Assembly: GCF_011764425.1 (NCBI RefSeq)
Contig: NZ_BLPF01000001.1
Coordinates: forward strand, 4,765,001 to 4,829,000
Direction: 5' to 3'
Length of the DNA stretch: 64,000 nt
Source of the DNA: Phytohabitans houttuyneae
GTDB taxonomy: Bacteria > Actinomycetota > Actinomycetes > Mycobacteriales > Micromonosporaceae
The notes beneath the pieces were generated by a model. That model ran no database searches. It had not been told where the DNA came from and worked only from the letters and a program-made list of their open reading frames with translations. Shown here piece by piece: positions 53,754 through 55,700 of the stretch; the stretch's first letter is position 1, and the number at the start of each line of letters is the position of its first letter. Position numbers and translations under genes: made by a program.

Positions 53754-55660
53754 CTACATGAGGGTTAACTGCTCCGGCTCGGGCGGGGGCGGTGGTGACT
53801 CGGTCTGGCGGGCCTCGGCCGGCTCGGCGCGCTCCAGACCGTGCCGCCGGGCGGCCATGCGGACCCGGGCGGTGACCTCGCGCTGGTATTCCTTCGGCAG
53901 GTAGGAGCCGCGCCCGTACAGCCGGCGGTAGTGCGGGGCCAGTGCCGGAAACTCGCGGGTCAACCACGCCGCGTACCACTCGCGGGCGCCCGGCCGCAGG
54001 TGCAGCGGGATCGGTGTGATGCTGGCCGCGCCGGACGCCGCAATCGCCGCGACCGTGGCCTCGATCGAGTCGTCGGTGTCGGTGAGGCCGGGCAGGATCG
54101 GCGCCATCAGCACGCTCACCCGGAAGCCGGCGTCGGTGAGCGTGCGCACCGCGTCGAGCCGCCGCCGCGGGCTGGGCGTGCCCGACTCGACCGAACGCCA
54201 CAGCCGCTCGTCGACGAAACCGACCGACATCGCGACGCCCACCTGCGTCACCTCGGCCGCCTGCCGGAGCAGCGGCAGGTCGCGCAGGATGAGCGTGCCC
54301 TTGGTGAGGATCGAGAACGGGTTGGCGAAGTCGCGCAGCGCCGACAGGATCCGTGGCATCAGCTTGTATCGCCCCTCGGCCCGCTGGTACGGGTCGACGT
54401 TTGTGCCCATCGCGATGTGCTCGCCGCGCCACTTGGGTGCGGCCAGCTCACGCCGCACCAGCTCACCCGCGTTGATCTTGACGACGACCTTGGTGTCGAA
54501 GTCGTGCCCGGCGTCGAGGTCCAGGTAGGTGTGCGTGCTGCGGGCGAAGCAGTTGTGGCTGACCACGCCGTTGGCGATGAAGTCGCCGGTGCCGGTGGTG
54601 ATGTCGTAGAGCGGGAGGTCGACGCCGAGCGGCTCGACCGAGAGCACGTCGAGCCGCGTGTCCGACCCGACCGGCAGGCCCGCGATCGAGCGCTTGCGGC
54701 CGATCGCCGGGTCGACGAGATGGCAGAAGCGCATGTGCTCGGTGAGCCCGCCGCGCAGCCGGACCGCCGTGCCGGACTCCTCCGGCCGCGCGTCGAACCC
54801 GAACCTGGCGAGCGCCGCGGCGACCGCGTCGAGGGTCTCCTTGTCGTCGCTGCGGATGCGCAGCTCGTCGCCGTCGCGGCTGCCGTCGGAGTCGAAGATG
54901 CCGGCCAGGAGGCCCTTGCACCACTCGTCGCCGGCACGCTCGGGCCAGCGGACCAGGTCGCGGATCGCCTCGATCGTCGCGGCGCCGAAGCCGGCCAGGT
55001 AGTCGAGCGAGCGGTCGACCGCCTCCGGCACGTACGTCGCCAGATGTGCGTCGCCGCGGATCATGCCGCTCAGGTAGCCCCGCCGGTAGTCCGCCGAGTC
55101 CTTGGGCCCCTCCACGAACTGCCCGGTGCCCATGAACCGGTCGCCCGCGACAACGCCGCCGACCACGTGCTGCCAGCCCCGCTCGGTGAGAAACCGGTGG
55201 TCGCCGCTCGCGATCAGCTGCGTGCCGTCGGCGAGCGTGACCCGGTGGGCCGGCTTGGTGGTGCTCCAGTGCGCGAGGACGGTCGTCACCGTGTACCGCC
55301 GGGAGGCGCCGACCGGGACCGTGCCGTAGATCGCGTCGCCCACCTTGAGGTCGCGCAGGGGACGGGTGGTGCCGTCGGCCATCAGGATCGGCGTGTCACC
55401 GGCCAGGCAGTAGCTGCACGCGTGGCTGCACCCGCGGTACGGATTGATCGTCCACTGGAACGCCATGCGGGACGAGCCGGGCACCCTGTTGATGATGCTC
55501 TTGGCGCGCACCTCGAAGAAGGTCATGCCGGCGAAGCCCGGCGTGTCGAAGGTGCGCGCCACCGCGTCGGGAGGCAGCGCCAGCGGCAGGGGTGGAGCCG
55601 CTGGCGCCGGCCCGTCCGGGACCTCTCCGTCGGGGGAGCCGACAGATTGTCCCAGCGCAT
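53754..55660 (-). CDS. Rv2578c-family radical SAM protein, intein-interrupted (frame interrupted near 55639)
   Basis: About 635 aa including a 286-aa intein. ATG 55660 begins MRWDNLS, the usual Rv2578c-type N-terminus. One extra G at 55639-55640 continues into GSPDGEVPDG and the main frame, consistent with the other homopolymer losses. After splicing, [27 protein letters not shown] carries the radical SAM CxxxCxxC motif; further family features are VVVKINAGELVRRELAAPKW, MGTNVDPYQRAEGRYKLMPR and FSILTKGTLILRDLP. The substrate is unknown. Seven nt upstream of the TPR gene. Confidence 0.87.
54552..55409 (-). other. Intein with LAGLIDADG endonuclease domain
   Basis: 286 residues, from Cys (CLAGDTPILMADGTTRPLRD) to the C-terminal GVVSHN before the +1 extein Cys. 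Splicing block A is the N-terminal Cys-led stretch, block B is LIASGDHRFLTERGW, and block F/G is PLYDITTGTGDFIANGVVSHN-C. Two endonuclease motifs are visible (YLSGMIRGDAHL and LLAGIFDSDGS). The insertion splits the [4Fe-4S] motif: CSHACSY | C, so the third cluster cysteine is the splicing nucleophile. Without splicing the enzyme could not bind its cluster. Confidence 0.92.
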
Positions 55661-55700
55661 GCGGCCTATTCGAACACGCGTACGAGCCGAGCGCAAGCAA

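Follow-up and report, generated by a model that had tools for sequence, protein, structure and literature searches.

In Phytohabitans houttuyneae, an intein with a shortened endonuclease interrupts an Rv2578c-family radical SAM enzyme at its third cluster cysteine

MoaA is a radical SAM enzyme. The intein in the MoaA of the archaeon P. abyssi has, according to passages of two reviews (PMC3922620, PMC10663303), a native disulfide between the extein residue Cys-3 and the first intein residue, Cys1, which controls splicing; the same passages make known a Cys-3 to Cys1 disulfide in an engineered DnaE intein as well. The SufB intein of Mycobacterium tuberculosis sits in an iron–sulfur assembly protein, and passages of PMC8891592 propose that metal-chelating extein residues matter there, but SufB is a cluster scaffold protein rather than a radical SAM enzyme. 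Among structurally solved LAGLIDADG inteins, PI-SceI and TliVMA combine a Hint splicing domain with a LAGLIDADG insert. The NCBIfam model NF038136, named “intein-containing Rv2578c family radical SAM protein”, indicates by its existence that an intein in this host family is known to curators. No title or abstract on an intein of an Rv2578c-family radical SAM protein was found in the literature searched, and a term search of the papers naming Rv2578c found no mention of an intein.

The locus described here shares features with each of these systems. Like the P. abyssi MoaA intein, for which redox-blocked splicing is reported in the passages cited above, it lies in a radical SAM enzyme and has the Cys-3/Cys1 pair; that intein, however, is archaeal and belongs to a different enzyme, and both it and SufB are likened to our case by description, not by sequence. 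Like PI-SceI and TliVMA, it has a predicted Hint domain with a LAGLIDADG insert, although it is about 45 residues short relative to its own full-length relatives. It has the same host family as NF038136, the window intein differing by its shortened endonuclease region. The intein is real and widespread, of a catalogued kind, with a similar case described in an archaeon; its wider host range and the idea of a decoy motif, both set out below, were not found stated in the literature searched.

The window, i.e., the whole 64,000-nucleotide stretch of P. houttuyneae DNA that was analysed, carries the gene on its minus strand. An intein-containing Rv2578c-family radical SAM precursor occupies the open frame 53754–55700 (648 codons when counted from a TTG, the true start being unsure), with its stop at 53754. 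The precursor scores 845.6 bits with NF038136 (cut-off 700), 511.1 with NF038135, the NCBIfam model of the Rv2578c radical SAM family (cut-off 430), and 47.7 with Pfam Radical_SAM (cut-off 29.5), and the gene is of the kind already catalogued as NF038136. Its C-extein has one match in the P. houttuyneae genome (74/74 first-look candidates scored), so the assembly holds no intein-free copy.

The intein itself spans 286 residues, from Cys1 to Asn286 (54552–55409, minus strand; precursor residues 98–383), and is recognised by its sequence, profiles, predicted fold and fold matches. Its first residues are CLAGDTP and its last GVVSHN; the next residue is Cys, and the flanks are CSHACSY on the N side and CFARSTHTY on the C side. 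The N-extein end CSHACSY (55410–55430, minus strand) contains two of the cluster cysteines, Cys-7 as the first and Cys-3 as the second, while the C-extein (53757–54551, minus strand) opens with the codon 54549–54551 for the +1 Cys, which is the third. The CX3CX2C cluster motif is thus split between its second and third cysteines and, by sequence, is reconstituted once the exteins are joined. The initial annotation had described a 286-residue insert running from Cys to Ser-His-Asn and splitting [16 protein letters not shown], and this is what the minus strand contains, with scores above the cut-offs of NF038136 and of two intein end models, TIGR01445 (26.1 bits vs. 24.5) and TIGR01443 (19 vs. 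15.6). Pfam LAGLIDADG_3 is also exceeded (30.5 bits vs. 22.5), but Pfam Intein_splicing, at 23.2 bits, is below its cut-off of 35.8.

Structure prediction of the intein (20 rows) gave a mean pLDDT of 94.1. The predicted fold matches solved PI-SceI and TliVMA best, its splicing part matches NpuDnaB and Mtu RecA, and a Hint fold, as belongs to class 1 inteins, is predicted. Of the class 1 residues, Cys1, the block F Asp, the penultimate His, the terminal Asn and Cys+1 are present. The C-terminal splicing blocks (54552–54608, minus strand) hold Asp269 of block F, His285 and Asn286, and block B reads Ser68-Gly-Asp-His71 (55197–55208, minus strand), where the usual TXXH starts with Thr. Judged by these residues, the insert is a class 1 intein, for which autocatalytic splicing would be expected, though the Ser in block B weighs against it.

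Among the first 30 loci fetched, the exact insertion codon is occupied in 18, by inserts of 143–379 residues, and precisely empty in 12, which shows that the insert is no fixed part of the enzyme. A larger set of 168 loci, of which 4 were unparsed by our pattern (leaving 164) and 11 more, filled at this site, were lost to a stricter flank pattern, was reduced to 153 loci and 135 distinct rows: 12 scarless empty and 123 filled, the window included. The ratio 123/135 is not an occupancy rate, as most loci were fetched using the intein or a filled precursor as query. All 123 distinct filled loci have Cys1, a His-Asn end and Cys+1 at this insertion site. On an extein tree of 81 of the 135 rows, including the 12 empty ones, no fewer than eight changes between filled and empty are required, gain and loss being indistinguishable there.

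Three of the six genomes of the genus are filled (G000, G001 and G003). In the order sample, the precursor matched 303/397 genomes (E 1e-10) and the intein profile 96/397 (E 1e-15), both counts including at least two genomes (G116 and G183) with an orphan intein only; in the phylum sample, the intein was matched in 37/396 genomes and NF038135 in 149/396, 45 of them above its cut-off. The species collection yielded at least 579 stretches encoding relatives of the intein, from which 80 loci were kept. Genus g4 has the intein in 20/60 gene-bearing genomes. In three genera chosen after data inspection, g65, g46 and g91, it is present in 13/13, 7/7 and 4/4 of the gene-bearing genomes listed; 21 of the 24 were read, and all of those measure 292–305 residues.

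Some matches fall outside this pattern of filled and empty alleles. The orphans of G116 and G183 are intein-like frames of 301 residues (L171:1809-2711 and L172:1824-2726) that have lost the block B His and the terminal His-Asn; the C-extein is absent anywhere in these genomes (0/2), so the orphan frame seems to have outlived the host gene. At L173 (genome G278), an Rv2578c-type gene has its frame broken inside the intein, giving two open frames, unless this is a sequencing error. The window's own genome has two matches of the intein N-terminal type (6/6 candidates scored), the only other one (L170, G000:C2:1694321-1694527) being inside a 2380-residue open frame and perhaps representing the Hint domain of a large protein.

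Splicing residues and endonuclease have had different fates. Cys-7, Cys-3, Tyr-1, Cys1, His71, Asp269, His285, Asn286 and Cys+1 are kept in 123/123 distinct filled loci, although the search pattern itself partly demanded Cys1, Cys+1 and the flanking cysteines. The proposal that the +1 extein residue is the third cluster cysteine holds for all of them. Position 68 of block B is Ser in 116/123 and Gly in 7/123, and never the Thr of the usual TXXH. By size classes defined within this analysis, there are 7 mini, 46 mid and 70 full forms, and the splicing residues are conserved in the mini and mid forms too. The two LAGLIDADG-type motifs that had been noticed are both there, LSGMIRGDA at 55047–55073 and LAGIFDSDG at 54882–54908 (minus strand), but they are 53 residues apart, against a mode of 98 in the 70 full-length relatives, which leaves about 45 residues missing between them. 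The deletion pattern varies by lineage, with two gaps in the window and, in L072 relative to its sister L085, a single missing block of about 50 residues. Both acids that we take to be canonical for LAGLIDADG endonucleases are found in 64/70 full, 16/46 mid and 0/7 mini forms; the window retains them as Asp120 and Asp175. Its endonuclease is nevertheless probably inactive and unable to home, a reading for which the inter-motif deletion is the sole ground. Invariant splicing residues together with such varied losses indicate that the residues for splicing persist while the endonuclease decays repeatedly.

The same intein lineage was also found at the same site in PA0069-type enzymes of other phyla. 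Five carriers lie outside Actinomycetota, all metagenome-assembled: L110 and L121 (Myxococcota by NCBI rank), L116 and L138 (Pseudomonadota) and L120 (Omnitrophota). With seven actinobacterial rows they form a PA0069-hosted set of 12, of which 11 exceed the PA0069 profile cut-off of 360 (369–487 bits) and L110 is just below it (355.7). With rows outside this set counted as Rv2578c-type without scanning each, median intein identity is 53.6% between host types (1248 pairs) and 53.8% within Rv2578c hosts (5356 pairs), whereas extein identity falls from 58.1% within Rv2578c hosts to 35.3% between host types; unchanged intein identity beside falling extein identity is what transfer would lead one to expect. 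Extein and intein identity correlate at 0.39 within and 0.16 between host types. Host type changes once on the extein tree and three times on a quick intein tree, but in a test on 70 rows (58 full-length inteins besides the 12 from PA0069 hosts) keeping those 12 together as one clade was not rejected (p-AU 0.887) and had the better likelihood, so the idea of several transfers was dropped. Our claim from these sequence comparisons is that at least one transfer would have taken place between Rv2578c and PA0069 hosts. NF038136 excludes the related hosts: against its cut-off of 700, the 12 PA0069-type proteins score 471–508 bits and two viral-contig proteins 185 and 233.

Those viral-contig proteins come from IMG/VR. 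Related inteins of 345–346 residues occur on contigs L175, L176 and L177, again at this cysteine, here within an NPY-GCX3CX2C motif; L176 and L177 are alike as compared, and L175 is distinct. Their hosts are divergent, with Radical_SAM scores of 23.4 bits (L175) and 12.8 bits (L176) against the cut-off of 29.5, and the L176 extein aligns to other exteins across 26–33 residues only; they are probably radical SAM proteins. It is possible that viral contigs represent a reservoir or a vehicle for the intein. Four of the seven viral-contig loci bear inteins or intein-like stretches in other proteins. Among the seven phage records matched, no intein was found in a radical SAM gene, and in six the match falls in terminase genes. 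In the seventh, of phage Rctr197k (L182:1292-4561; KX853510.1, Rctr197k_024), the gene is annotated “radical SAM protein-like”, a name that may derive from similarity to the intein; by our reading it encodes a helicase-like protein that contains an intein, and we rejected it as a radical SAM carrier. A plasmid match, H8, has no annotated gene at its position.

We consider it very probable that the window holds a class 1 intein with past homing and a dead endonuclease, retained mainly because its precise loss is rare. From the residues present we infer a standard splicing chemistry: the gene would be translated as one precursor, Cys1 would attack the Tyr-1 peptide bond, the extein would move to Cys+1, and Asn286 would cyclise while the exteins join to give the cluster motif [11 protein letters not shown]. 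The element would have spread earlier by homing among radical SAM genes by means of its LAGLIDADG endonuclease; with the loss of about 45 inter-motif residues, homing was probably lost as well, and the splicing residues would remain under strict selection. The choice of site may be explained by the third-cysteine codon, which falls where the target is most conserved and supplies the +1 nucleophile, and retention mainly by the rarity of precise loss at a catalytic cysteine.

Two alternatives would leave no spliced enzyme. It is hardly conceivable that the insert belongs to the enzyme as an ordinary domain that does not splice: many relatives have it (the 96/397 genomes of the order sample), but exact empty sites occur in 12/30 loci, a Hint fold is predicted and TIGR01445 and TIGR01443 are above cut-off. 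The empty alleles rule such a domain out, and the choice of an intein over a conserved non-intein domain, made in the initial annotation, stands. The other alternative is a degraded intein in an incipient pseudogene, with splicing or expression already lost, for which the start of the gene can be cited. The conserved family start, an ATG beginning MRWDNLS (55658–55660, minus strand), is out of frame with the gene body; it is probably the reason why the gene end had been placed at 55660, which is indeed the first base of that start codon but not of a codon in the body frame, open to 55700. Of 30 loci, 27 have an in-frame MRW or VRW start; in L001 and L012 it lies in another frame, and in L021 it was not seen. 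The break is at a run of five C in the window (55632–55636, minus strand) and in L012, an empty allele in the sister species G002; the run is six C long in four further genomes of the genus (G001, G003, G004 and G005, i.e., L008, L002, L017 and L011). A break of this kind makes normal expression of the gene less probable, and the shortened endonuclease and the decay at related loci (the L173 frame break; L171 and L172 without splicing residues) point the same way. However, precursor residues 22–648 are 89% identical to the G003 relative with no internal stop, the splicing residues are intact, and besides the TTG at 55700 there are in-frame start candidates at 55562 (GTG) and 55526 (ATG). The five-C run is common to two species, which favours a real change and speaks against a decaying gene, although it may be a sequencing error in both genomes. 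We therefore regard the pseudogene as very unlikely.

A third alternative accepts splicing and makes it conditional. The unspliced precursor reads CSHACSYC, i.e., Cys1 lies three residues past Cys-3 and completes CX3CX2C, as any Cys1 intein would if inserted just ahead of the third Cys in such a motif. The proposal that cluster assembly depends on splicing is therefore right for the native chain, which needs splicing, but not for the motif as such, already complete in the precursor; with Cys1 at the proper spacing, cluster binding before splicing is possible. Control of splicing by redox state or metal is plausible on this arrangement: a Cys-3 to Cys1 disulfide, or a metal or [4Fe-4S] cluster on Cys-7, Cys-3 and Cys1, would block splicing until the conditions are right for a radical SAM enzyme, which is oxygen-labile. 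The three cysteines are present, and Cys-3 is placed next to Cys1 in the MoaA-type redox-trap arrangement, in 123/123 distinct filled loci; the P. abyssi MoaA intein offers the native precedent described above; the fold matches include 3nzm, the structure of a DnaE intein with a redox trap in its N-extein; metals, zinc included, inhibit bacterial inteins according to a passage of PMC10663303; and in g65, g46 and g91 every listed genome with the gene has kept an intein of shortened or mini form. On the other hand, the enzyme itself demands Cys-3, which is present in 12/12 empty alleles, so its position is no sign of selection for gating. Many relatives lack the intein, among them 3/6 genomes of the genus and 40/60 gene-bearing genomes of g4, and a passage of PMC12924846 reports that a Streptomyces relative loses the host gene without significant fitness effect, so that a vital switch is not obvious from that account. 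A conserved cysteine sensor within the intein was ruled out, since no extra cysteine is universal among the 123 filled loci (the best occurs in 76). A redox- or metal-gated switch is thus a tentative possibility that we think rather unlikely. In a broader form, one mobile lineage would be specialised for the third cluster cysteine of Rv2578c, PA0069 and viral proteins, and its decoy CX3CX2C would gate splicing by binding a metal or cluster or by forming a disulfide, making the MoaA case general across several phyla; we hold this to be unlikely.

With filled and empty alleles in one genus, and full, shortened and mini forms at one position, nature offers here a clean test of the idea that inteins at catalytic cysteines work as switches. 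If the decoy binds a cluster or forms a disulfide, an ordinary and widespread element would place the making of an enzyme under the control of iron–sulfur state. If it does neither, the intein would be a well-sampled selfish element stranded where exit is hard.
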